Of a stretch of DNA of 64,000 nucleotides, positions 27,142 to 41,274 are shown one piece after another. A program made the position numbers and the translations under genes. Every line of letters begins with the position of its first letter. Within the stretch, counting starts at the first letter, position 1. The stretch covers positions 1 through 64,000 of the forward strand of contig JAADHK010000097.1 in the NCBI GenBank assembly GCA_013151835.1, read 5' to 3'. The notes beneath the pieces were generated by a model. The model had not been told where the DNA came from, did no database searches, and was given only the letters and a program-made list of their open reading frames with translations. The stretch is from Deltaproteobacteria bacterium. GTDB lineage: Bacteria; Desulfobacterota; Desulfobacteria; Desulfobacterales; Desulfosalsimonadaceae.

Positions 27142-29598
27142 TTATAAGGCACCCCCGGCCTGTTCCGTGACCCGACCTATAAGTATTTCGGCCGTCTCCC
27201 CGTGATCGGGAAAAACGGCCCAGGAAAATGAAATTCTTTTTCCGGAAAGGGCGGATTCGATTTTCCCGGCCAGGCGATTGAAAACCGCTTTTGCATCCTC
27301 CGGCCCGGTTTCGGGAAAGATCAGGTCGATATCCCCGTTTTTATATGTACGCATGAAGTCATAGCCCCTTTTATCATTTTCCAGGATTTTTAAGATAATA
27401 TGATTTTTTGCGATTGCAAGCTCTCCTCTACTTCCTTTCCCGTGTATCCGTAAGAGGGTAAAGGGCTTTTTGTTCCGTTTTGCAAGGCTTATAAATCGCC
27501 TTAAATGATTCAGCAAAAGTATGTCCGACTCCATGACGGGCACAGGCTGCGCGGATCCGGGACCGCGTTTTTGTTTCAGGGGGAGGGTGACGATAAACCG
27601 GCTTCCTTTACCGGGTCCCCCGGTTTCCGCACTGATTTCAGCCCCGTGGAGTTGAAGCAGCTTTCTCGTCAGTGAAAGCCCCAGGCCGGTGCCGGGCGTC
27701 TTGCCGGTAAGACCGCCCGCAGCCTGGTGAAACTCTTCGAAAATTTTTTCCGTCTCTTCCTTTGCAAGGCCGATGCCTGTATCTGAAACGGTTATGCGGA
27801 GGGCGTTTTTCTTTTTTTCAGCCGATATTCTTATCATGCCGTTGTCATTGCTGAATTTTACCGCGTTGGACAGGAGATTAAACATCACCTGTTTGAGCTT
27901 GCGCTCGTCTGCGTGAATATCAATATCCGGCACATCGCCATCGAAAAAGAGTTCGATGTTGATCCCGTGCTTCATGGCCTTTTCCCTGATCATGACGAGG
28001 CTGTTTTCAAGGAGGTCTTTGATGTTTACGGCGGAAAGCCGGAGCTCCATCTTGCCCACCTCGACTTTTGAGAGATCGAGGATATCGTTTATAAGGGATA
28101 ACAGGTGGTTGCCGCTTTCAAGTATATCCTTGAGATATTCGGCCTGCTTTTTGTTGAGCGTGCCGAAATATTCGTCCTGCAGCACCTCTGAAAAGCCGAT
28201 GATCGCGTTTAGCGGGGTGCGCAGTTCGTGGCTCATGTTGGACAGAAATTCGCTTTTGGCCGTGTTGGCGGCTTCCGCCGCCTTTTTCGCGGTCTCAAGC
28301 TCCATGACCGCGTTTTTCAGGGCCGCTGTCCTTTGATCAACCATTTTCTCGAGGTCCAGGTTGTATTTCGCAAGCTTTTTTTCGGCCCATTTCCTCTTGG
28401 TGATATCGGTTACGGTCCCTTCGTATGATTCGAGTTCCCCGGCTTCATCGCGCCTGGCCCTGGCGTTTATGGATATCCAGGTTTTTGAACCGTCTTTTTT
28501 AAATATCTCGAGTTCAAATTCGTTTACTCTTCCTTTTTTTTCAAGCACTTGTCTGAATTCTTCAAAGCGGTCGGGATCCGTAAAGAGTTTTTTCGTGATT
28601 AAAAAATCCGATGCTATCAATTGTCTTGGTGAAGCAAATCCGAAAAACCGGGCCATTGCCGGGTTTACCAGGAGAAGCCGGCCGTGGGGCGCAAGCCTGA
28701 ATATTCCTTCGGTGACGTTTTCAAATATCTCTCTATACCCGGCCTCGGCCCTTTCGGCCCTTTCGGTCAGAAGGGTCTGGAGCCGTATCATTTTGAATCC
28801 GACATTGATACGGGCCCGCAGTTCGGGGCCTGAAAAGGGTTTGCGCAGATAGTCGTCGGCCCCGGCGTCAAACGCGGCCACGACTTCCCTGGTATCGCCC
28901 TTGGCCGTGAGCATGATCAGGTAGGGGGGAGGCGTTCTTTTATGGCACCGGACCGTCCTGCATACCTCGACCCCGTCGGTTTTCGGCATCATCCAGTCGA
29001 GAACCGCGATGTTCGGGGGATCATCGCCTTCAAGAATTTCTATGGCCTTGTCCCCGTTTGCAACCGGGACTGCCTTGTAACCCCATTCGGCGAAATTTTC
29101 AATCAGGACAGTACGCGAGATCGCGTCATCCTCGGCCACGAGAACCCTCCGGTCCGGCGGCAGACCAAGATCAAGGGTAAAAGAAGATTCCTCTGCATCA
29201 AGGTTTTCATCCGACGCCTTTGAAAGGAGCGCAAGGATACGGACCCCGGCCAGAAGCCTGGCCCGAAGCTCCCGCCCGGAAAACGGTTTGACGATATAAT
29301 CATCGGCCCCGGCCTCGAAGGCTGTCACCATGTTTTCGGTGGTGATCCTGCCGGTGAGCATGATCACGTAAAATGGCCCGCCATCCTTTTTTTGCCTGAT
29401 GCGCCTGCAGACCTCGATTCCACTCATGCCCGGCAGCATCCAGTCCGCGATTACAAGGCGCGGTGGGTCGGGTGCATCAAGCAGGTTCCAGGCGTTCTCT
29501 CCGTTTTCAGCCGCCACGGGCTCGTATCCCCATTCCTCTAAATCGGCCCGAAGGGTGGTGCGGGTGATGGGATCATCCTCGATGACCAGTACCCTCAT
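27142..29598 (-). CDS. Hybrid histidine kinase with two N-terminal receivers, PAS and degenerate GGDEF-like tail
   Basis: This 818-aa soluble protein has receiver 1 (1-120, Asp in LVIADWMLPGMSG), receiver 2 (152-270, Asp in IAVLDWMMPKTDG), a PAS domain (about 300-425), HisKA with the phosphorylated His in NMSHELRTPLNA (near 470), and HATPase (about 575-685, DTGIGL and GTGLGL). The last 120 residues resemble a GGDEF nucleotide-cyclase fold, but the signature reads NGDID in YKNGDIDLIF, so it should be inactive. There is no membrane segment. The start overlaps the upstream kinase stop by four bases (ATGA), with GGAGGAG as ribosome site. Confidence 0.9.
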   Translation of the reverse strand: MRVLVIEDDPITRTTLRADLEEWGYEPVAAENGENAWNLLDAPDPPRLVIADWMLPGMSGIEVCRRIRQKKDGGPFYVIMLTGRITTENMVTAFEAGADDYIVKPFSGRELRARLLAGVRILALLSKASDENLDAEESSFTLDLGLPPDRRVLVAEDDAISRTVLIENFAEWGYKAVPVANGDKAIEILEGDDPPNIAVLDWMMPKTDGVEVCRTVRCHKRTPPPYLIMLTAKGDTREVVAAFDAGADDYLRKPFSGPELRARINVGFKMIRLQTLLTERAERAEAGYREIFENVTEGIFRLAPHGRLLLVNPAMARFFGFASPRQLIASDFLITKKLFTDPDRFEEFRQVLEKKGRVNEFELEIFKKDGSKTWISINARARRDEAGELESYEGTVTDITKRKWAEKKLAKYNLDLEKMVDQRTAALKNAVMELETAKKAAEAANTAKSEFLSNMSHELRTPLNAIIGFSEVLQDEYFGTLNKKQAEYLKDILESGNHLLSLINDILDLSKVEVGKMELRLSAVNIKDLLENSLVMIREKAMKHGINIELFFDGDVPDIDIHADERKLKQVMFNLLSNAVKFSNDNGMIRISAEKKKNALRITVSDTGIGLAKEETEKIFEEFHQAAGGLTGKTPGTGLGLSLTRKLLQLHGAEISAETGGPGKGSRFIVTLPLKQKRGPGSAQPVPVMESDILLLNHLRRFISLAKRNKKPFTLLRIHGKGSRGELAIAKNHIILKILENDKRGYDFMRTYKNGDIDLIFPETGPEDAKAVFNRLAGKIESALSGKRISFSWAVFPDHGETAEILIGRVTEQAGGAL

Positions 29599-31283
29599 CG
29601 TTCTCCTCCTTCATTAAAGGATAGGATGGCGTCCATAAATCTTTTGACCTCCGCCTCGATTTCAACCAGAGCTTTACTGCCTGCGGACAGGTCCCCGGCT
29701 TCGCCGATTTTTTCAAGGTTGAACGCGGCTGTTCTCGCCCGGTGCGCGCCGAAATTGTCGAGTGTGCCCTTGAGTCTGTGGGCCGTTTCCCGAAGTGCGG
29801 CCGGGTCGCCCGAATCGATTGCGGCCCTGATGTCCGCCACGAGTCCCGGCCCTGTTTCGAGAAATATGGATATGATCTGCTTAAGGAGTTTCAGGTTTCC
29901 GTCCACGGGCAAAAGGGCTGCATCCAGGTCGAAAATATCATTCCTGCCGTATTCCCCCGGCAATGGGGGCGTGTTTTTATCTTCATCAGGTTTTTCGGAC
30001 AGAATCGCCTTGATGGCCGTAAACAGTTCGTCCGGCCGAAGCGGTTTTGATACGTATCCGTCCATTCCCACTTCCAGGCACTTTTTCCTGTCCCCGGTCA
30101 TGGTGTGGGCCGTCAGGGCAATGATTGGGACGCGGGGCGGGCCTGTCCCCCCGTTTTCATCCCCGGCCCGCTTGTCGCAGGCTTTTTGCCCGGCGGCCCG
30201 GGCTTCCTGTTTCCTGATTTCCCGGGTCGCGGCAAGGCCGTCCATCTCCGGCATCTGGATATCCATGAGCACGAGGTCGAATCGTTTTTCGTTAAGCGAG
30301 TTAATGGCTTCAAGACCGTTTCTCGCAACAGTTACCCTGTGCCCCGCAGCCTCGAGAAGGCCCGTGGCCACGGCCTGGTTGATCTCGCTGTCTTCCGCCA
30401 AAAGGATATCAAGGCGTTGCGGGTGGTTTTCATTTCCCTTTACCGCTTTCGGGCCGTCTTCCCGGTCCGGACCGTAAGCCATGGTTCCCATGACCCTCTG
30501 GATGGCGTTTAACAATTGTGACTGTCTTACCGGTTTTAAAAGCAGGGCGTCTATCAACCCGCGATTGAGCGCAACAGAACATTCATTTCCGCCCGCAGAG
30601 GAAAGGATTATGAGCAGGATGCCCGCAAACACAGGGTTTTCACGTATCCTTTCGCATAAATCGAGTCCGTTCATCTCCGGCATATTATAATCTGAGATGA
30701 GTATGTGAAACGGCTTTTTTTTAAAAGCCGCTTTTTCAAGTTCGTTCAAGGCTTTCGGGCCGCTTTCCGTAACCGTGATGTCAAGCCCCCAGTTTCCAAG
30801 CAACTCTTCTAATATCCGCCGGTTGGTGGTGTTGTCATCCACGGCAAGGAACCTGAAGGCAGAAAGATCGGAAATGGCGGGCGGTTTGGCGGTTTTATCT
30901 TCAACGGCCTTAAATTCCAAGGTGAAATAGAAAGTCGACCCCTTGCCGGCGCCCCTGCTTTCCACCCACATCCTTCCCCCCATCATGGAGACAAGCTGCG
31001 AGGATATGGAGAGCCCGAGGCCGGTACCCCCGAACTCCCGGGTCGTGGAAGAGTCTGCCTGTGAAAACATTTCAAATATTTTTTCCTGCTTTTCCGGTTC
31101 GATTCCCATGCCGGTGTCTTTAATGGAAACCAGGAGCATCACGTTTCCAAAAGATACAGGCGGGTTTTCATCCGCAATTTCCACATTGAGAAATATATCT
31201 CCCCCCGGTGGGTAAACTTGAGGGCGTTTCCCAAAAGGTTTACAATCACTTGCCTGAAACGGACCGAGTCGCCAATCACCCAT
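29595..31283 (-). CDS. C-terminal part of a frameshifted hybrid kinase: HATPase end, two receivers, HPt
   Basis: This frame continues the kinase encoded by 31139-32743. The family-like sequence begins near 31206 with the middle of the HATPase domain (DTGMGI, GGTGLGLSIS). It is followed by a receiver (Asp in ILISDYNMPEMNG), a second receiver (Asp in LVLMDIQMPEMDG) and an HPt domain with AHRLKG. The ATG at 31283 is only the first start in this frame; a separate protein from there would lack HisKA and half the ATPase. One extra G in the run at 31201-31206 would fuse both parts into a single BarA-like protein of about 1050 aa. Confidence 0.8.
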   Translation of the reverse strand: MGDWRLGPFQASDCKPFGKRPQVYPPGGDIFLNVEIADENPPVSFGNVMLLVSIKDTGMGIEPEKQEKIFEMFSQADSSTTREFGGTGLGLSISSQLVSMMGGRMWVESRGAGKGSTFYFTLEFKAVEDKTAKPPAISDLSAFRFLAVDDNTTNRRILEELLGNWGLDITVTESGPKALNELEKAAFKKKPFHILISDYNMPEMNGLDLCERIRENPVFAGILLIILSSAGGNECSVALNRGLIDALLLKPVRQSQLLNAIQRVMGTMAYGPDREDGPKAVKGNENHPQRLDILLAEDSEINQAVATGLLEAAGHRVTVARNGLEAINSLNEKRFDLVLMDIQMPEMDGLAATREIRKQEARAAGQKACDKRAGDENGGTGPPRVPIIALTAHTMTGDRKKCLEVGMDGYVSKPLRPDELFTAIKAILSEKPDEDKNTPPLPGEYGRNDIFDLDAALLPVDGNLKLLKQIISIFLETGPGLVADIRAAIDSGDPAALRETAHRLKGTLDNFGAHRARTAAFNLEKIGEAGDLSAGSKALVEIEAEVKRFMDAILSFNEGGER

Positions 31284-32743
31284 TGAGGGACATCCGGGTC
31301 GATGCGTACGGCCAGCTCCAGGCCCTTTGCAAATGCCTCGATCCCCATGGTCGCGGCGGTATTTTCAACGACATCCCGCATGATGAACGGCTGATAGTCG
31401 AGTTCCAGGCGGCCGGCCTCGATCCTGGAAAAATCGAGGATATCGTTTATTACCGTTAAAAGCGACTCGGCCGAATGGCGGGCCATGTCTAAAAATTCCT
31501 TCTGGCGGCCGGTGGGGCCGGTGTTGCCGAGAAGCTCGATCATTCCCATGATCCCGTTTAAGGGCGTGCGGATCTCATGGCTCATGTTGGCTAAAAATTC
31601 GCTCTTGGCCCGGCTGGCGGCCTCGGCGATTTTTTTCGCATTTTTCAATTTCTCTTCTGCTTCGTGCTGTTTGGTTATGTCCATATTGATGCCGGTCATG
31701 CGTACGGGCCCGCCTTCGGGGTTTTTCTGCACCAGGGAACATGCCTTGATCACGCGCAGGCCGTCGCCGGTCATGACGCGAAAATCGGTGTCAAAATCCT
31801 TTTCTCCGCGCAGGGCCGTCTGAATTTCGTCCTCGACCCGGCCCAGATCTTCGGGAAGGATCCTTTGCCGCCAGTCGTCGTAGGTGTTGGTAAAGCGGTC
31901 CGGGTGAATCCCGTAAATCGCGTACATGGTCCTGTCCCAGATCAGGACGCCCGAGCTTATATCCCAGTCCCACACCCCGATTTCCGCTGCAAAAGTCGCG
32001 AGTTTCAGGCGCTCGGATACATCCCTGACCTGCTTTTCCTTTTTTTTGCGCATAAGGCTTTCTTGTTCTAGCCTGGTATTTGTGTCATTAAGTTCGTCAA
32101 TGAGGCTCCGCCGTTCGGCCATGGCGCGGAAAAAGAAAAAAAAAGCCAATCCCATGATTAAAAGTCCGGAGACAATAGCCAGGACAATAAACGCGATGGT
32201 CTTTTGAACATCTGAAACGGCTGCGGCTTTGCGTTTTTGAAAAAGTAAATCTTCCCGGTTTCCCATTGAGGCCAGAATTTTTCGGATATTGTCCATGGTC
32301 TTTTTGCCGGCGCCGGTCATCACAATATCCCTTGCGGCTTCAAATCCCATGTTTTTCCGTAAGGCAACCGCGTTTTTCAGTTCCGCGAGTTTTCTGTCCA
32401 TCAGCAGGCGGAGAACCTCGAGTTCTTTTTCGACGGCGGGATTTTGGCCGTAAAGGCGGCACAGGTCTTTGTAATGTCTGTTTGCGGATGAAATTCCAAG
32501 AGTATAATATCCCAGGTAGGTATCATCGCCCGTTATGACAAAGCCCTGCTTTCCTGTCTCTGCGTCCGCAATGTCCGCAAGCAGCGAAGAAAGCGTATCT
32601 TTTACTTTAATAGTCTTGTCCACCACGGCAAGGTCATTCAGCAGCCTGCCGGTGCTGTAATAGGAGGTGATGCCGACGCCGGCCAGCATGACCAGTGCAA
32701 GAAAGAAGAAGATGGCGATATTTCTTTCAATGTCTAATTTCAT
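31139..32743 (-). CDS. N-terminal part of a frameshifted hybrid kinase: CHASE3, PAS, HisKA, partial HATPase
   Basis: From the ATG at 32743 (AGGA upstream) the protein has a membrane segment (10-30), a periplasmic CHASE3-like helical domain (about 35-170, DAETGKQGFVITGD), a second membrane segment (about 180-205), a PAS domain (about 240-350), and HisKA with the phosphorylated His in NMSHEIRTPLNG. The HATPase begins (VRFRQVIVNLLGNALKFTHRG) and then the frame runs out of family sequence after the G6 run, ending after about 20 unrelated residues. A start at 32929 also exists, but the residues before 32743 look like a non-coding leader. Confidence 0.82.
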   Translation of the reverse strand: MKLDIERNIAIFFFLALVMLAGVGITSYYSTGRLLNDLAVVDKTIKVKDTLSSLLADIADAETGKQGFVITGDDTYLGYYTLGISSANRHYKDLCRLYGQNPAVEKELEVLRLLMDRKLAELKNAVALRKNMGFEAARDIVMTGAGKKTMDNIRKILASMGNREDLLFQKRKAAAVSDVQKTIAFIVLAIVSGLLIMGLAFFFFFRAMAERRSLIDELNDTNTRLEQESLMRKKKEKQVRDVSERLKLATFAAEIGVWDWDISSGVLIWDRTMYAIYGIHPDRFTNTYDDWRQRILPEDLGRVEDEIQTALRGEKDFDTDFRVMTGDGLRVIKACSLVQKNPEGGPVRMTGINMDITKQHEAEEKLKNAKKIAEAASRAKSEFLANMSHEIRTPLNGIMGMIELLGNTGPTGRQKEFLDMARHSAESLLTVINDILDFSRIEAGRLELDYQPFIMRDVVENTAATMGIEAFAKGLELAVRIDPDVPQWVIGDSVRFRQVIVNLLGNALKFTHRGEIYFSMWKLRMKTRLYLLET

Positions 32744-32775
32744 ATATGTTCCTGCTTTAGATGGTCGAAAAACAG

Positions 32776-32789
32776 GGCGTTTTAACGCC
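32776..32789. terminator. Possible bidirectional terminator
   Basis: GGCGTTTTAACGCC is a short hairpin followed by TTTTTAC on the plus strand and by CTGTTTTTC on the minus strand. It stands between the stop of the LamG gene and the kinase start, both on the minus strand. The stem is short, so it is only a candidate. Confidence 0.4.
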
Positions 32790-32969
32790 TTTTTACTCTG
32801 CCGTTGTTCACAAACCGGCCCGGGCAGGGCGGATCTCACAGGGAGGAACGTGGACGACATGGAATCTTTTTTTCCGCACAGCCTGGGGTCGGCAAAGCAG
32901 AAAAGCACCAATGCGAAGTGGAACAGCAAATGACGAGCTCTGAACGATCACTCGGTGATCGCCCGCAGT

Positions 32970-35900
32970 CTACCATTCGATAACGGAAATAAAGCAGATG
33001 TTGTGATTCTCCGATGCAGGCGTATCCACTGAAGCCGATGATTTGTATCGCCTGGTGTTTTTCGGAGCCGCAACATTTACCGGCCCGTAGAATTCGCTTT
33101 CGGCATTTGCCGAATCCGGGATCGATTCGAGCTTGTAGTAATGACGGGAAGCGTCCGCCGCAGAAATATCGTTGTCGGTAAATGTGTAGGTTTCTCCTGA
33201 AAGGGCATTTGCCCCGGTGGCGTAAATCATGCCGGGAGAAATAATCCCGTAGGGGCCGTCTTCATTGTCCGACCGCCAGATCCGGTAGGCCAGAGTGTCG
33301 AGTTCAACGGAGGTGGTCCATGTCACCTCGATGCAGTCACGGTCCGCGCAGGGGGCCGCTGAAAATGCCGCAAGTGTGATGGCGAGCGGAGCCCCGGCCC
33401 CGCCGAACACGTATTCGGTTCCTGACTGGCCGGTGGTGGTGAGGGTGTTTCCCGTTGTGTCGAGTGTGGCGCCTGAATCGCTCCAGATCGCCTGGCAGTA
33501 ATCGCTTCTGGTTGCAAGCCCCACCACGGAGTCGTCCACCGGCGTCATGGGGTTGTTCCCGTAATCGTAAACAGCGGTATAGGTCGGGGTGACGCCGCCG
33601 GTGACAAACACGCCCCAATACCGGGTATAGTCGAGGGAGGACCACCCGGCCGGAGGGGTAAGCCCGTTGGGCGAGCGGAGATAGGGATCGGATCCGATAT
33701 CCGGAGGGTATACGGACGGCTCGTCCAGGCGGTAGACCTCTATCCCGGAGTTATTGGCCGTGCTCCACGTGCCGCCGTCGCCGGTTGCCGTGAAAAAATC
33801 CCCGTCAACATGGGCGATGGAGGCGGTAAAATCCCCGGGGGCCGTGCCGGTGAAGTCGTATGCGCACGCATCGCCGATGGGGGCCTCGGAGCAGGTTCTG
33901 GCGGTTGCGACGTCGGCGAAATTCGTCATGACGCCGTTATTATTGTTGGCCGTCTGGTCCAGGCAGGTCGTACTCGAAGATTCCTCGTCAAACCTCCAGT
34001 ACCCGACCAGTCCTGATTCGCTTCCCGTGAGTTTCCTGCACATGGCGTCCTGGATCTGGGCCTGGGTTCTGGCCGTGTTCCATACCCGGATGTCGTCGAT
34101 CTTCCCGTCAAAATAGATTGTGTCGATTGCCTGTCTGCCGAATTCCAGGGCTTCGTTGTTTGTCCGGGACGCGTTGTCTATGTTGGCGGCGGAGTTTGTA
34201 TCCTGAACCCCGTCGATGTAAATGGTCATGGAATCGGCGCCTGCCGTGTTGCTCCATACACAGGCAACATGGTACCATTGGCCTGTTGTAAGGGTAGCCG
34301 ATCCGGTGAGCAGGTAGTTTCCGCCTGCGGTATTGCCCACAACAAACCCGATGTTCGAGCTTGCGCCGCCGTTAAATACGGTTCCGGCGGCGCCGCCGCC
34401 CGACCCGAAACCATAGCACGCGGCGGTCGTGCCTTTGAGCAGTATCCCCGCGTTTGCCGTCAGGGTGTCCGCATATATCCATGCCTCCAGGGTTCCTGAA
34501 TTATCCAGGTCAAGGGTGGCGTCGTCGGGAACGGTGACATAATCGTCGGCACCGTCATAGTCTATGGCGTTTCTCGGGTCCACGAGCTGGCCGAGGATGT
34601 ACTCAGTCCCTGTTTGTCCGGTCTTTGTAAGGGTGTTTGCTCCCGTATCGAGCGTGGCGTCCGAATCGATCCATTGCAGGCCGGCCCTGTGGCGGTAAGC
34701 CATTTTCAGCCGGTTTTCGCGCAGCAGAAGGGGAATACCGGTGTAATTATACTCGGCCGTGTAGGTCGGATCAGTACCGCCGGCCATGAATACCCCGAAG
34801 AAATGAGAGTTGTTTTCAAAAAGCCGCCAGTGGACGGGCCCGAAGATGTCACCGGGTGACATGTCGACCCGGTAGATCACCACGCCCGTGGGCGAGCCGG
34901 TGATGGATTTCACCGTGAGTCTGTCGCCAAGAGAGCTTGCCAGGAATATGGAGGAAGGACTGGAAAAATCGGCCGTCATGTCATCGCCCAGAGGCGCGCC
35001 CGAGGTGACCCGGGCGGTTGCGGGAGTCATATTGGTCATGGTCCCGTTGGACTGGTTGTCTGAAAAATCGGTGCATTTGTTCCCGGCTTTATGGTCGAAA
35101 CGCCAGTAGGCCACGATCCCGGTTTCGGCGCCGGAGAGTTTTAAGCAAAGGTTGTTCTGTATATCCGAAGCGCTCCTGGCCGTATTCCAGACGCGCACCT
35201 CGTCGATGCTGCCCGTAAAGGGGTTTGCCACGGTTGCATACCTCGCGCCGATCCTCAGTTTTCCCGAGGCGTTCTGCGCATTTCTCCGGCAGTCGCCGGT
35301 ATTGTCGGAAATGCCGTTTATATATATGACAAGATCGGATGTGCCGGCCGTATTGTCCCAGGTTCCGGCCACGTGGTACCACTTGTGGAGCATCAGCTCC
35401 GATGTTGAGGTGACCGTGTCTGAATTCGTGCCGTCGTTCACGGTAAGGACAAGCTTTTTGTTATCCGCGCCGGCCCCGAATTTTAAAACATACGCCTCGT
35501 CTGCGGCGGAATCCCCCTTGGCGATGATTGTCGCGTTGTCCGAAAAGGTCGATACCTTGATCCATGCCTCCAGGGTGCCGGATGATGAAAGGTCGAGGGT
35601 GGCCGTGTCGTTTACGGACACGAAATCGTCGATCCCGTCAAGATCAAGAGCCCGGCCCGCCTCTGGTGGGGATGACGGGGAGAGGGGGTTTCCCCTGATC
35701 AGGTCTCCATCTGCGGCCTTGGCCCTCTGCACTGTCCCGTCGCTGGTCTGCCAGTTGTCGTCGGTTCCGGGGTTGTGGGTGACGACCCGCTCCAGGGATG
35801 CGTAGTTGAAAGTGCTCCCCCCGGGCCAGCCTCCGCCGTCGGGATTGACGACATCGATCAGCGTGCCCCCGGAGTTTTTTAGTTCAAGCTGCTCGCCCGT

Positions 35901-37178
35901 GTCCTGGAGTTCGCCGGTGTATATCTGGTCTGCCGTAAGATTCGAGATGGTCCAGTCGTCGTCCCGCTCGAGAAGATAATATGATTTTGCCGCTATGGTA
36001 CCGGTTAAGGCGATGTTCGGGGTTCCGTCCTTTGCGGCAAGGGTCCAGGCCGAGAGGTTGATAAGGGCAGTGGTGTTATTGTAAAGCTCGATCCATTCGT
36101 CTTCCGGATATGCGTACGTCCCCATCCACCCGACTTCCGATATGGCGACCGTGGGGTTGTCCGGCACGCCCGAGGCGTCAAAGTTCAGGGAAAAGACCAG
36201 GACACCGGCGTCTTCCAGGATATGGCTTCGATCCGAGTCATAGTACTGATCCTCGTCCACAGTGAGGCCCACGTAGGATGTGGTGAGATCGCAGCGCCTC
36301 AGCCACCCGCCGTTGTTTCCGTTTCTCGAGTTCATGGACGCCATGACCAGGGGAGTGGTGGTGTAGGTGTTGGTGAAGCTCACGTCAAAGCATCCGTTGG
36401 CCCAGCCCTGGATGGCGCTGGTTGCCACGATCGATTCATAGGTGACGGTGGTGCCTGAACCGTCTGTGAACGTGCCTGAAAGTCCACCCTCCATGACCGC
36501 GATGCCGATGGTTTCGTTTGATGATACGACTCCGGTGGCCACCTCGGCGCGCTCCAGGGCTACGTCCACGCTCGATGTGGTTACGTTTGACGCGGCCACG
36601 GTGAGCCAGGGCGTGGACGTGGTGGACGGCGGGGTGCCTGTTTCATTTACCATGGTCTGGATCTGGGTGATCACCGCCGGGGTGGAGCCCACGCCCGGAA
36701 AGGCCACGGTGTCCCATCCGGCGGTACAACCGACATTGGTCGCGCACTGCACGGTCTGGGTATCGTGGGTGGTTACGTAAATTGAATCACCGTTTGGCAG
36801 GATAGTGGTTCCGGTCTCGATTGCAAGATAATGAACGGTCATGGCAACGTGCCCGCCGTCCTGATTGTCCGGCTCCACCTGGCACATGTCGCACCCCGTG
36901 GTGGTGACGTTTTTGATCCTTATCGAGCAGGGTTGACTCCCGTCGCTGGTGGCCATGGCAAAGACCACGGGAGTCGTGGCATAGGTGTTGGTAAAGGTCA
37001 CTGTGGTAAAGGAGGGGGTGGATAACGTGTTGTTCAGCGCCACGCTCCCCACCTCGAAGTTTCCGGCAATGGCTGTTCCGGGCCGGGACACGAGGGCGAG
37101 CAGACAGAAAAACAGGGACAGGAAACACGACCGCAAGATATTCTTATTTATCTGACAGGAGCGCTTATCGCGACTCAT
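32970..37178 (-). CDS. Giant secreted protein with LamG domains and a lamin-tail-like domain
   Basis: This protein of about 1402 aa starts with a signal peptide (cleaved near TAIAG). The first 330 residues hold two beta-rich repeats with the pattern FTNTYATTPVVFAM / FTNTYTTTPLVMAS, similar to H-type lectin folds. A lamin-tail-like domain follows (ISEVGWMGTYAYPEDEWIELYNN). Then a block is repeated twice: a LamG/concanavalin-like domain (DGIDDFVSV and DGADDYVTV) and a partner domain ending in TGQTGTEYILG / TGQSGTEYVFG. The C-terminus resembles a fibronectin-III fold. No sorting signal is seen. The start is set by AAGGAG eight bases before the ATG; an upstream ATG at 37250 lacks this. It is probably an extracellular adhesin or polysaccharide-binding protein. 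Confidence 0.85.
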   Translation of the reverse strand: MSRDKRSCQINKNILRSCFLSLFFCLLALVSRPGTAIAGNFEVGSVALNNTLSTPSFTTVTFTNTYATTPVVFAMATSDGSQPCSIRIKNVTTTGCDMCQVEPDNQDGGHVAMTVHYLAIETGTTILPNGDSIYVTTHDTQTVQCATNVGCTAGWDTVAFPGVGSTPAVITQIQTMVNETGTPPSTTSTPWLTVAASNVTTSSVDVALERAEVATGVVSSNETIGIAVMEGGLSGTFTDGSGTTVTYESIVATSAIQGWANGCFDVSFTNTYTTTPLVMASMNSRNGNNGGWLRRCDLTTSYVGLTVDEDQYYDSDRSHILEDAGVLVFSLNFDASGVPDNPTVAISEVGWMGTYAYPEDEWIELYNNTTALINLSAWTLAAKDGTPNIALTGTIAAKSYYLLERDDDWTISNLTADQIYTGELQDTGEQLELKNSGGTLIDVVNPDGGGWPGGSTFNYASLERVVTHNPGTDDNWQTSDGTVQRAKAADGDLIRGNPLSPSSPPEAGRALDLDGIDDFVSVNDTATLDLSSSGTLEAWIKVSTFSDNATIIAKGDSAADEAYVLKFGAGADNKKLVLTVNDGTNSDTVTSTSELMLHKWYHVAGTWDNTAGTSDLVIYINGISDNTGDCRRNAQNASGKLRIGARYATVANPFTGSIDEVRVWNTARSASDIQNNLCLKLSGAETGIVAYWRFDHKAGNKCTDFSDNQSNGTMTNMTPATARVTSGAPLGDDMTADFSSPSSIFLASSLGDRLTVKSITGSPTGVVIYRVDMSPGDIFGPVHWRLFENNSHFFGVFMAGGTDPTYTAEYNYTGIPLLLRENRLKMAYRHRAGLQWIDSDATLDTGANTLTKTGQTGTEYILGQLVDPRNAIDYDGADDYVTVPDDATLDLDNSGTLEAWIYADTLTANAGILLKGTTAACYGFGSGGGAAGTVFNGGASSNIGFVVGNTAGGNYLLTGSATLTTGQWYHVACVWSNTAGADSMTIYIDGVQDTNSAANIDNASRTNNEALEFGRQAIDTIYFDGKIDDIRVWNTARTQAQIQDAMCRKLTGSESGLVGYWRFDEESSSTTCLDQTANNNNGVMTNFADVATARTCSEAPIGDACAYDFTGTAPGDFTASIAHVDGDFFTATGDGGTWSTANNSGIEVYRLDEPSVYPPDIGSDPYLRSPNGLTPPAGWSSLDYTRYWGVFVTGGVTPTYTAVYDYGNNPMTPVDDSVVGLATRSDYCQAIWSDSGATLDTTGNTLTTTGQSGTEYVFGGAGAPLAITLAAFSAAPCADRDCIEVTWTTSVELDTLAYRIWRSDNEDGPYGIISPGMIYATGANALSGETYTFTDNDISAADASRHYYKLESIPDSANAESEFYGPVNVAAPKNTRRYKSSASVDTPASENHNICFISVIEW

Positions 37179-37261
37179 TTCCGAAGCTCCTTTTTGACAT
37201 GAGCGCCCCGGTATTACCGAATGAGGGCATTCCTTTTTTTGAAGTGTCATGGCAAAAGTCT

Positions 37262-37859: not shown

Positions 37860-38639
37860 TCAAAACAGCCGGCCTGTGCCAAAATACCAGGAGATGAGAA
37901 ACTGCCCAAAAAAAATGTATAATACCGCACCCATGGAAAGAAACGGGCCGAAGGGCACCGCGAGCTTCATGTCTTTTCCGTTTGCGAGCATCAACGCAAG
38001 GCCTATTACCGAGCCCGTCACCGAGGCCGCAAAGAGCGTGAAAACAACGCCCTGCCACCCTATGACCGCACCGATCATGGCAAGAAGCTTCACGTCTCCT
38101 CCGCCCATTCCTTCGATCCCGGTTATTAGCCTGTAGCCAAACCCCACTAAAAAGAGGCTCCCCCCGCCCGCAAGGATACCGATCAGGCCGTCTGAAAGAG
38201 GGAGGTCAAGGAAAAAATGCGATGCAAAAAGACCGATGGGGATGCCTGAAAGGCTTATTGCATCCGGGATGATCCTGTGGTCGATATCAATAAAGGTTAT
38301 GACGATAAGCGCGCAGATAAAGGCAAAAATGAGCGGGGCCGCCGGTGAAAGCCCGTATTTAAGGATGCTGCAGGCGGCAAATCCGGCGGTGATGAGTTCG
38401 ACCATCGGATACCTGAATGATATTTTTTGCCCGCAGGCCCGGCATCTGCCCATCAAAAGGATAAAACTGACAACCGGGATATTGTCATAGGCGCGTATGG
38501 GCCTTGCGCACCCCGGGCATTTCGAGCCCGGGCTTACGATTGATTCTCCTGCCGGGATGCGGTAGATGCAGACGTTTAAAAAGCTGCCGATGCAGGCCCC
38601 AAAAACAAGGGCCGCGATTATTATTGCCGGATTTGACAT
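37860..38639 (-). CDS. pilD: Prepilin peptidase (A24 family)
   Basis: This 259-aa inner-membrane protein cleaves and methylates type IV pilin-like precursors. It has the N-terminal GSFLNVCIYRIP motif, the zinc-site CPGC and CRACGQ pairs, and both catalytic aspartates, in DIDHRIIPD and in GGGDVKLLAM. About seven to eight membrane segments are visible. I start at the ATG of MSNPAI; the longer frame upstream reads through the divergent lon promoter region and lacks family features. No other pilus gene is near. Confidence 0.92.
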   Translation of the reverse strand: MSNPAIIIAALVFGACIGSFLNVCIYRIPAGESIVSPGSKCPGCARPIRAYDNIPVVSFILLMGRCRACGQKISFRYPMVELITAGFAACSILKYGLSPAAPLIFAFICALIVITFIDIDHRIIPDAISLSGIPIGLFASHFFLDLPLSDGLIGILAGGGSLFLVGFGYRLITGIEGMGGGDVKLLAMIGAVIGWQGVVFTLFAASVTGSVIGLALMLANGKDMKLAVPFGPFLSMGAVLYIFFGQFLISWYFGTGRLF

Positions 38640-38811
38640 AAATGTTATCCGTATTACTTTGTAAGAAGATTGGCCGGGCAGCCGGTTGTCGGCCCGCCGG
38701 GAATTTATATTGTGTTTACCACACGACCGGCGTATGTAAAACAGATTTTTCCACAAGTACGTCAAAAATGAGTTATACTCCATAACCGTTAAAGATATTC
38801 CGGGAGAAATA

Positions 38812-41274
38812 ATGGCTGAAAGAGACAAGGACGACCTGATCCGGTTAATTGATGAAAACGATCCGCGTGACATAGAAATACCGGACAGGATTCCCGTTCT
38901 TCCCGTCAGGGACATCGTTATTTTTAATGACATGGTGCTTCCCCTTTTCATCGGCCGCGACAAGTCCTTAAAGGCCGTTGACGAGGCCATGAAAAAAGAC
39001 AGGCTCGTCTTGCTTGCCACTCAGAGGGACCCGCTTGCGGATGATCCGGGACCGCGCGAGATATACAGGGTCGGGACCGTATGCAGGATATTGCGTATTT
39101 TGAAACTCCCGGACGGGCATTTCAAGGTCCTGGTGCACGGCATTGAAAAGGCGAAGATCCAAAGGTTTATAAATTGCAAGACCCATTACGAAGTCAAACT
39201 CCATGTGATTAAGGAAGAGCCGCCTGAAAAAATTGAACTGGAACATCAGGCACTGATGCGTATTGTACGGGAGCATTGCGAAAAAATTCTCACCATCAGG
39301 GGTGAATACACGGGTGAAATCGGAATACTCTTAGGCGAGATCAATGATCCCGGTAAACTCGCCGATCTTGTGGCCTCGAACCTGAAACTTAAAATCGAGG
39401 AAGCCCAGGGACTGCTTGAAATAGACGACTCCATGGAGCGGTTGATGGAGGTAAATAATTATTTGACCCGGGAGGTTGAGCTTTCTACCGTTCAGGCCAA
39501 GATTCAGTCCACCGTGCGCGATGAAATATCCAAAAACCAGCGGGATTATTTTTTGCGTGAGCAGGCCAGGGCCATTCACCGGGAACTTGGGGACATGGAT
39601 GAACGGTCAGAGGATATCACCGAATTCATGGAAAAGATCCGCAAGGCCAGGATGCCGGCGCAGGCGCAAAAGGAATGTGAGAAGCAATTATCCCGCCTTG
39701 AACAGATGCATCCGGATTCATCAGAGGCGACGATTATACGCACGTACATGGACTGGCTCGTTGAACTGCCCTGGAGCAAGTCCACAAAAGATCTGATTGA
39801 TATCAAAGCCGCCAAGGAAGTTCTGGATGAACGGCATTATGGCCTTGCGCCCGTAAAAGACCGGATCCTCGAATATCTTTCCGTACGGAAACTCAATCCC
39901 AAGAAAAAGGGGCAGATTCTCTGTTTTGTGGGCCCTCCCGGCGTGGGTAAAACCTCCCTGGGCCAGGCCATTGCCACGGCCATGAATCGTAAATTTTTTC
40001 GAATGTCTCTGGGAGGGATAAGAGACGAGGCCGAGATCCGAGGGCATCGGCGGACCTATATCGGGTCCATGCCCGGAAGAATTCTCCAGGGGCTTTCCCA
40101 GTGCAAGACCAACAACCCTGTTTTCATGATGGACGAGGTGGATAAGATTGGAGTGGATTTCAGAGGCGATCCCGCGTCTGCCCTGCTGGAGGCCCTTGAT
40201 CCCGAGCAGAATGTCGGCTTTGTGGACCATTTTGTAAACATGCCCTTTGATCTGTCAAAGGTCTTGTTCATACTGACCGCAAACATAACGGATACTATCC
40301 CATATGCCTTGCTCGATCGGATGGAGGTGATTCAGCTTCCGGGTTATACGGAGGAAGAGAAGACCGCTATTGCCAAAAAGTACCTTTTTCCAAGGCAGCT
40401 TTTGGACAACGGACTTACGGAACAGGATTTGTCCGTAAGCCCGACAGCTCTTGAGCGAATCATCACCCAATATACTTCCGAGGCGGGATTGCGGAACCTG
40501 GAGCGTGAGCTTGCGGCCCTGTGCAGAAAGGTCGCCCGAAAAATCGCCGAGGGTAAGAAAGGCCGTTTTACGATTTCATGCGGCAATCTCCACAAGTACC
40601 TCGGCCCGCCGAAGTTCATCCCCGAACTGGACCAGGACGACAGCCAGGTGGGCCTCGCAACCGGCCTTGCCTGGACCCAGGTGGGAGGTGAGGTCCTTTA
40701 TATAGAGGTTTCGCTCATCGACGGGAAAGGCGAGCTTATCATCACCGGCCAGCTCGGGGATGTCATGCAGGAATCCGCCAGGGCTGCGGTTACCTTTGCG
40801 CGGTCAAGGCGCAAAGCCTTGGGAATTGAGAAAAAAGTGTTTGAAAACACTGATATCCATATTCACGTGCCGGCCGGGGCCATACCAAAGGATGGACCGT
40901 CGGCCGGGATATCAATGACAACGGCCCTGATTTCCGCGCTTACGGATCGACCGGTAGACAGGTTAGTGGCCATGACCGGAGAAATTTCATTGCGGGGCCG
41001 GATTCTTCCCATCGGGGGGTTAAGGGAAAAGTCCATCGGGGCATTGCGGGCGGGAATCACGACCATTATAATACCCGAGAAAAATAAATCGGATTTGATG
41101 GAGATACCAAAGACCGTTTTAAAGAAAGTCCGGTTCATGCCGGTTTCAACCATTGACGAAGCCCTTGAAATCGCCATTGGCAATGGCGTGTTCATCGCTG
41201 AAACAGGACGGAAGTCATCAAAAAAATCAGTTCGAAAATCAGCCGGGAAATCAAAAGAGGCTCCCGGTAAATGA
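38812..41274 (+). CDS. lon: ATP-dependent protease Lon
   Basis: This 820-aa LonA protease degrades misfolded and regulatory proteins. It has the N-terminal substrate domain (LPVLPVRDIV-like RIPVLPVRDIVIF), Walker A GPPGVGKTS near residue 373, and the catalytic Ser in PKDGPSAGIS near 695 with the Lys of GGLREKSIGA about 40 residues later. The C-terminal 25 residues are a Lys/Ser-rich tail beyond the usual end. GGGAG stands before the ATG; a possible -10 TATACT is at 38774-38779. The stop overlaps tsaB by four bases. Confidence 0.98.
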   Translation: MAERDKDDLIRLIDENDPRDIEIPDRIPVLPVRDIVIFNDMVLPLFIGRDKSLKAVDEAMKKDRLVLLATQRDPLADDPGPREIYRVGTVCRILRILKLPDGHFKVLVHGIEKAKIQRFINCKTHYEVKLHVIKEEPPEKIELEHQALMRIVREHCEKILTIRGEYTGEIGILLGEINDPGKLADLVASNLKLKIEEAQGLLEIDDSMERLMEVNNYLTREVELSTVQAKIQSTVRDEISKNQRDYFLREQARAIHRELGDMDERSEDITEFMEKIRKARMPAQAQKECEKQLSRLEQMHPDSSEATIIRTYMDWLVELPWSKSTKDLIDIKAAKEVLDERHYGLAPVKDRILEYLSVRKLNPKKKGQILCFVGPPGVGKTSLGQAIATAMNRKFFRMSLGGIRDEAEIRGHRRTYIGSMPGRILQGLSQCKTNNPVFMMDEVDKIGVDFRGDPASALLEALDPEQNVGFVDHFVNMPFDLSKVLFILTANITDTIPYALLDRMEVIQLPGYTEEEKTAIAKKYLFPRQLLDNGLTEQDLSVSPTALERIITQYTSEAGLRNLERELAALCRKVARKIAEGKKGRFTISCGNLHKYLGPPKFIPELDQDDSQVGLATGLAWTQVGGEVLYIEVSLIDGKGELIITGQLGDVMQESARAAVTFARSRRKALGIEKKVFENTDIHIHVPAGAIPKDGPSAGISMTTALISALTDRPVDRLVAMTGEISLRGRILPIGGLREKSIGALRAGITTIIIPEKNKSDLMEIPKTVLKKVRFMPVSTIDEALEIAIGNGVFIAETGRKSSKKSVRKSAGKSKEAPGK

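Follow-up and report, generated by a model that had tools for sequence, protein, structure and literature searches.

The window, a 64,000-nucleotide stretch of contig JAADHK010000097.1 from a deltaproteobacterium of the family Desulfosalsimonadaceae, carries on its minus strand a gene for an exported multidomain protein with lectin-like repeats and two LamG domains. The longest minus-strand open reading frame (ORF) runs from 37250 to 32970 and encodes 1426 aa. An ATG at 37178, preceded by a GGAG Shine-Dalgarno-like stretch and followed by a signal peptide, is most likely the better start, giving a protein of 1402 aa. By eye, the signal peptide ends in GTAIAG. The protein ends in a short cysteine-containing segment, here called the short CFI tail. 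The features of the locus, all on the minus strand, are as follows.

32970..37178, minus strand: whole coding sequence of the exported multidomain protein, 1402 aa (longest ORF starting at 37250)
37062..37178, minus strand: N-terminal signal peptide, cleavage likely after AIAG (read by eye from the sequence, no predictor)
36819..37007, minus strand: H-type lectin repeat 1 (PF09458; Pfam, 34.5 bits, cut-off 24)
36219..36383, minus strand: H-type-lectin-like repeat 2 (BLAST of two N-terminal parts, E 9e-6; not in the Pfam list)
35844..36158, minus strand: lamin tail domain (PF00932; Pfam)
35028..35684, minus strand: LamG 1 (PF13385; Pfam, extent from our own profile)
34587..35018, minus strand: partner domain copy 1, ending in TGQTGTEY (block alignment and comparison of partner copies)
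33918..34610, minus strand: LamG 2 (PF13385; Pfam, extent from our own profile)
33399..33905, minus strand: partner domain copy 2, ending in TGQSGTEY (block alignment and comparison of partner copies)
33066..33398, minus strand: Fn3-like stretch (33-36% identity in the three family homologues compared; named by eye, without a Pfam match)
32973..32996, minus strand: C-terminal tail CFISVIEW, the short CFI tail (sequence and tail comparison)
32776..32789, minus strand: terminator-like hairpin between this gene and the putative kinase ATG at 32743 (supported by a consensus match only, of a kind that is common: 13 in the region, with 6.0 expected)

A sequence-only reading of the window had described lectin-like repeats, a lamin-tail-like domain and two LamG-plus-partner blocks in one exported chain, and this architecture was borne out by Pfam matches above cut-off and by block and repeat alignments. 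Laminin_G_3 (PF13385) matched in two stretches with 184.6 bits (gathering score 27.6), LTD (PF00932) with 42.2 bits (34.3) and H_lectin (PF09458) in one stretch with 34.5 bits (24). The second lectin-like repeat was recognised by internal similarity only, in a BLAST comparison of one N-terminal part with another (35% identity over 55 aa, E 9e-6). The two LamG-plus-partner blocks are 37% identical over 342 aa (E 9e-61), with partner copies at aa 745-888 and 1116-1284 in the numbering of the 1426-aa frame. The same reading had called the protein giant; at 1402 aa it is large in relative terms, since the open frame of one homologue extends over at least 3632 aa. The best NCBIfam match, spanning LamG 1 and the part preceding it (aa 496-699), was to the TafC family fimbrial protein (NF052521), but with 105 bits against a cut-off of 410. 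G+C content is 0.54-0.58 in the gene region versus 0.44-0.55 in the remaining 2-kb steps, which gives no strong sign of recent import.

The sequence-only reading left out the C-terminus, whose last eight residues are in our view the most interesting part of the protein. The chain ends in NHNI followed by CFISVIEW, with five residues after CFI. Seventeen partner-bearing proteins of the source organism's family were examined, three of them cut by contig ends, and all 14 intact C-termini end in CFI or CFV followed by 4-9 residues. One further partial protein (L077), missed by the ORF filter, also ends in a CFI tail. As controls, mechanical ORFs of at least 100 aa at the prepilin peptidase (pilD) loci of 20 relatives gave no CFI tail (0/224), and the only one among the 55 ORFs of the window was the lectin gene itself. 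At the 17 partner-protein loci, 20 of 117 ORFs are CFI-tailed, comprising 13 partner proteins and seven C25 peptidases. Thirteen close C25 proteins have a visible end, and 12 of them carry the tail behind a Gly run, as in GGGGGGG-CFISSLQD, the exception being L151. A more distant C25 protein (L145, 6729-10685) ends in GGGGGGCFITTAAHGF, which matches only positions 1-20 of the CFI-box model (E 0.26); this end looks intermediate between the short CFI tail and a full CFI-box.

Within the source genome, two further CFI-tailed proteins (contigs C144 and C59) have the NCBIfam choice_anch_U domain directly before the tail, and another tail is found on a beta-propeller protein (C46); these are the proteins found among the listed matches that were read in frame, the TGT list being incomplete, and not a census. 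Contig C10 starts inside an ORF (L153, 1-131) ending in QQGGGGCFISVLGN, which is CFI-tailed and may be the missing end of a paralogue cut at the end of contig C70. Counts of tail-encoding DNA patterns against a reversed control were 92 versus 36 (TGC, with TAA or TGA stop), 249 versus 192 (TGT) and 20 versus 20 (TGC, with TAG stop). DNA-pattern counting is too unspecific to gauge how frequent CFI tails are genome-wide.

The short tail was then compared with known C-terminal signals. The closest in sequence is CFI-box-CTERM (NF041770), in which Cys-Phe-Ile likewise lies close to the C-terminus and often follows a run rich in Gly. That model, however, covers 69 positions, whereas here only 4-9 residues follow CFI and the score stays below the cut-off. 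In hmmscan to E 1, the window protein had no NF041770 match (cut-off 40 bits) and no TIGR04183 type IX sorting domain, TafC being the only model listed. NF041770 gave one match in the source genome at E up to 10, with 17.7 bits, on another contig and not to the lectin protein; its cut-off was reached in one of 36 genomes of the family, by another protein and not by the short tails. PEP-CTERM tags consist of a motif, a transmembrane helix and a basic cluster. Having five residues after CFI, the window protein does not follow this tripartite plan of the MYXO-, GlyGly- and PEP-CTERM tags. MYXO-CTERM, the tag associated with myxosortase, has an invariant Cys on surface proteins, and modification of this Cys has been proposed (PMC11980579). 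The CFI tail likewise places a Cys in a C-terminal tag, but differs in having neither a transmembrane helix nor an Arg-rich end.

Partner-bearing proteins from Bacteroidota provide a second comparison. They share with the window protein a LamG domain followed by the same partner domain, and the stretch after the partner domain is weakly similar to the Fn3-like part (E 0.003 for L008, 0.038 for L009 and 4e-5 for L033). They differ at both ends: H-lectin repeats and a lamin-tail domain precede these modules in the window protein, and all four Bacteroidota proteins tested end in TIGR04183 (Por_Secre_tail) above its cut-off, where the window protein has the CFI tail. Thus the same modules carry different C-terminal signals in the two groups.

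The partner domain, ending in TGQ.GTEY, had gone unrecognised in the sequence-only reading, and no family for it emerged in the tests against Pfam, NCBIfam and the PDB sequences. Forty-three copies were aligned and used for family scans and as a profile. Pfam gave no family in more than three members (best E 0.057), and NCBIfam gave single-member matches only, the best to a BapA/Bap/LapF adhesin (E 0.0037). The 43-copy profile matched fibronectin pieces among PDB sequences (E 0.001, 62 of 151 positions), a hint of a beta-sandwich only. AlphaFold modelled the domain with nine strands from a four-sequence alignment (pLDDT 60) and the LamG-plus-partner pair from a three-sequence alignment (pLDDT 51), both at low confidence. 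Foldseek returned nothing under E 0.001 (best E 0.019), and VIA structure comparison gave Z values of at most 6.6, a level that the tool rates as common. Because these profile, model and structure-search results are weak, the domain is left unnamed and its fold unassigned; a beta-sandwich is suggested with low confidence. In titles and abstract openings of the literature on related tags, peptidases and LamG proteins, we recognised no published description of the partner domain or of the short CFI tail.

A three-sequence profile of the partner domain matched one of 297 genomes of the organism's phylum, namely the source genome. The 43-sequence profile matched two of 395 genomes, both in the source organism's family, and within that family the domain was matched in 15 of 36 genomes. 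A scan of genome contigs for the domain yielded two, from a Flavobacteriales and a Flavisolibacter metagenome-assembled genome (MAG). In the phylum of the latter, which we take to be Bacteroidota, 15 of 296 genomes were matched, several of them weakly or partially. On the Flavobacteriales MAG contig (L008, 238-2152), LamG is encoded in one frame and the partner domain in another that overlaps it. On viral contigs, 42 pattern matches were obtained, and none of them encoded a relative. Thirty-nine plasmid records matched the LamG-plus-partner query; of the 20 listed, 19 matched within about the first 225 of 357 residues, which is the LamG part, and one extended to residue 265. From this distribution, transfer between Bacteroidota and the source family is a reasonable inference.

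Of 47 rows, left once eight partial matches of 55 had been dropped, 40 have a LamG that ends immediately ahead of the partner domain; some rows show one copy more than once because loci overlap, and in one of the 40 the LamG match is a 15-bit fragment. Two other rows are cut upstream, and the five without a preceding LamG are all weak Bacteroidota matches. The pair thus behaves largely as one module. In a maximum-likelihood tree of 37 partner copies (six weak ones of the 43 excluded), the 28 family copies form one clade (90/90), and copy 2 of the window protein groups with 12 other second copies (100/99). As second copies group together, the internal LamG-plus-partner duplication is likely old and shared across the family proteins, and not private to the window gene.

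The neighbourhoods of the 17 family proteins with a partner domain (that of the window and 16 in L062-L078) were compared, and 12 of them have enough downstream sequence. A Peptidase_C25 gene lies downstream in nine of these 12 loci, directly next in seven (L065, L066, L070, L071, L073, L075 and L076) and after intervening ORFs in two (L064 and L068); L067, L074 and the window have none. In five of the nine a Ser/Thr-His hybrid kinase protein of up to 1772 aa comes next, followed in three of the five by a LuxR-type response regulator. The one scanned, that of L071, contains Ser/Thr-kinase, AAA, GAF and His-kinase domains, and its identity to the other four, two of which are cut, is 70-82%. The C25 gene and this large kinase also adjoin in L149, L150 and L151, so that the kinase is seen beside a C25 gene in L064, L071, L073, L075, L076 and L149-L151, with a LuxR-type regulator in several.

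A C25 match was found in all 15 family genomes with the partner domain versus 4 of 21 without it (Fisher p 7e-7, kinship ignored). In this count G596 was scored as without, its matches lying only in the repeat part, and the source genome was scored by two distant C25 proteins; some matches are distant or partial. These two, the only C25 proteins of the source genome, are 29-31% identical, lie on another contig and both lack the CFI tail. At that locus (L142, contig C59:5000-24000), a choice-of-anchor-U protein with a CFI tail is encoded between two large C25 genes, and the locus continues with PqqD-like, radical SAM and HprK-like proteins; it is possibly a peptide-modification cluster around the CFI-tailed protein.

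The C25 neighbours share with the type IX sortase PorU the Peptidase_C25 family and the catalytic His and Cys motifs. Two neighbours scored 269.4 and 250.5 bits against the NCBIfam PorU model, below its cut-off of 420. PorU has a conserved Arg 32 residues after the catalytic Cys that is absent from gingipains, according to PMC4560394. This Arg is missing in all 11 C25 proteins parsed (from 16 loci given, with the Cys placed by motif). PorU identity was set aside on account of the scores and the missing Arg. The neighbours are C25 peptidases of the gingipain/PorU superfamily, with a sortase role as a candidate only.

In the window, the lectin gene is flanked on one side by an HU gene (37598-37329) and pilD (37860-39020), and on the other by a hybrid histidine kinase (29595-32929, minus strand) with the domain order CHASE3-PAS-HisKA / HATPase-REC-Hpt. 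The kinase appears split over two frames overlapping at 31139-31283, either by a true frameshift or by an assembly error, and its likely start is an ATG at 32743. The lectin gene ends 226 bp from this ATG on the same strand, in agreement with its earlier placement just upstream of the kinase genes. For comparison, 31 relatives had a pilD match and 20 were fetched, with 0.5 to 8.6 kb downstream of pilD; 19 pieces hold at least 1.3 kb, 14 hold at least 4.9 kb and six fall below 4.9 kb. HU was recognised in nine of the 20. At the pilD site, none of the 20 relatives (14 with at least 4.9 kb downstream) showed a match to the lectin gene or the CHASE3 kinase, and 11 of them gave only a receiver-domain match, of about 100-114 aa, between the other kinase of the window and a response regulator. 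The sequence-only reading had named the absence of a conserved linkage to the kinases as refuting its proposal, and no such linkage was seen at this site; the link to the window kinases was rejected as not conserved.

Taken together, these results lead us to regard the protein as probably a surface adhesin or lectin with a tail that serves for sorting or anchoring, as an abbreviated version of the CFI-box. The signal peptide would direct Sec export across the inner membrane, and the H-lectin-like, lamin-tail and LamG modules, judging from their domain families, would form a beta-rich chain that binds glycans or surfaces. Each partner domain and its preceding LamG may act as one unit; the tandem and the tree are consistent with a duplication of this unit in the ancestry of the family proteins. 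The eight C-terminal residues, Cys-Phe-Ile-x-x-hydrophobic-x-x, recur on C25 peptidases and choice-of-anchor-U proteins and would serve as a short C-terminal sorting or anchoring signal, standing where the four Bacteroidota homologues tested carry the type IX sorting domain. The tail would retain the protein at the surface, possibly through a modified Cys as for MYXO-CTERM, with C25 as a candidate enzyme for which the evidence is mixed. Retention is suggested because the tail is common to exported proteins of different make-up, including choice-of-anchor-U proteins, and because it takes the place of the type IX domain.

Several observations weigh against this proposal. Among six C25 proteins of greater distance (two from L142 and a single one from each of L145-L148), only that of L145 has a CFI end, and the source-genome pattern counts show an excess in one of three runs and little or none in the other two. 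The window tail is preceded by NHNI and not by the Gly run of the C25 peptidases; it also has neither a transmembrane segment nor a basic cluster and so does not follow the tripartite layout of the known tags for C-terminal sorting. No tail-processing enzyme came to light, no search having been aimed at one. The tails of homologous proteins are not independent observations, and confidence in the partner-domain models is low (pLDDT 60 and 51), with no Foldseek match under E 0.001.

Some of these points would fit an ordinary, freely secreted multidomain lectin or enzyme accessory, in which the C-terminal Cys is structural (in a disulfide) or a worn CFI-box remnant without a sorting role. The 69-position model is much longer than the tail and did not match it in the source genome, homologous proteins share C-termini by descent, and two of the three pattern counts lack a clear excess. 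Yet the same end is found on C25 peptidases, choice-of-anchor-U proteins and a beta-propeller protein, whose domains differ, and it is kept in 14 of 14 intact partner-protein C-termini; we consider free secretion unlikely, though it is the alternative to be taken most seriously. If the tail is a signal, the neighbouring PorU-like C25 peptidase might itself cut it and attach the protein, as a PorU-type sortase without a type IX secretion system. This improbable arrangement would account for the downstream C25 gene in nine of 12 informative loci and for the co-occurrence with the partner domain (15/15 versus 4/21, kinship ignored), and it draws on the 269-bit PorU match and on the presumed catalytic His and Cys motifs. 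It is opposed by a score below the cut-off of 420, by the absence of the PorU Arg in 11 of 11 proteins parsed (PMC4560394), by the CFI tail on the C25 proteins themselves and by the source genome, whose only two C25 proteins are distant, untailed and on another contig. Least probable of all, to the point of being hardly credible, is a unit of the lectin protein and the downstream CHASE3 hybrid kinase, with the former as surface sensor or ligand-presenting partner. The two genes are on the same strand and 226 bp apart, but neither was found at the pilD site in 20 relatives (six pieces having less than 4.9 kb downstream), a terminator-like hairpin lies between them, the kinase is split over two frames, and most homologues with enough sequence have different neighbours.

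Beyond the window protein, we tentatively propose, as a possibility that we still hold to be doubtful, that Gram-negative bacteria use the short CFI tail as a previously undescribed C-terminal sorting signal. It would often consist of a run rich in Gly/Ser and of CFI-x-x-L within about 12 residues of the end, would be modified at its Cys and would be carried by several unrelated exported proteins. In the source family it would replace the type IX domain on those LamG-plus-partner proteins that Bacteroidota also have, and a PorU-superfamily C25 peptidase would be inherited along with it. The LamG-companion domain is itself a unit the size of a protein family that has no model, and a model of it would help to annotate surface proteins better in two or more bacterial groups. 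Behind the shared ectodomain modules the Bacteroidota proteins carry a type IX sorting domain, whereas those of the source family have a short cysteine tail, and this natural swap would make the anchoring of Cys-tagged proteins in Gram-negative bacteria testable on one small motif.

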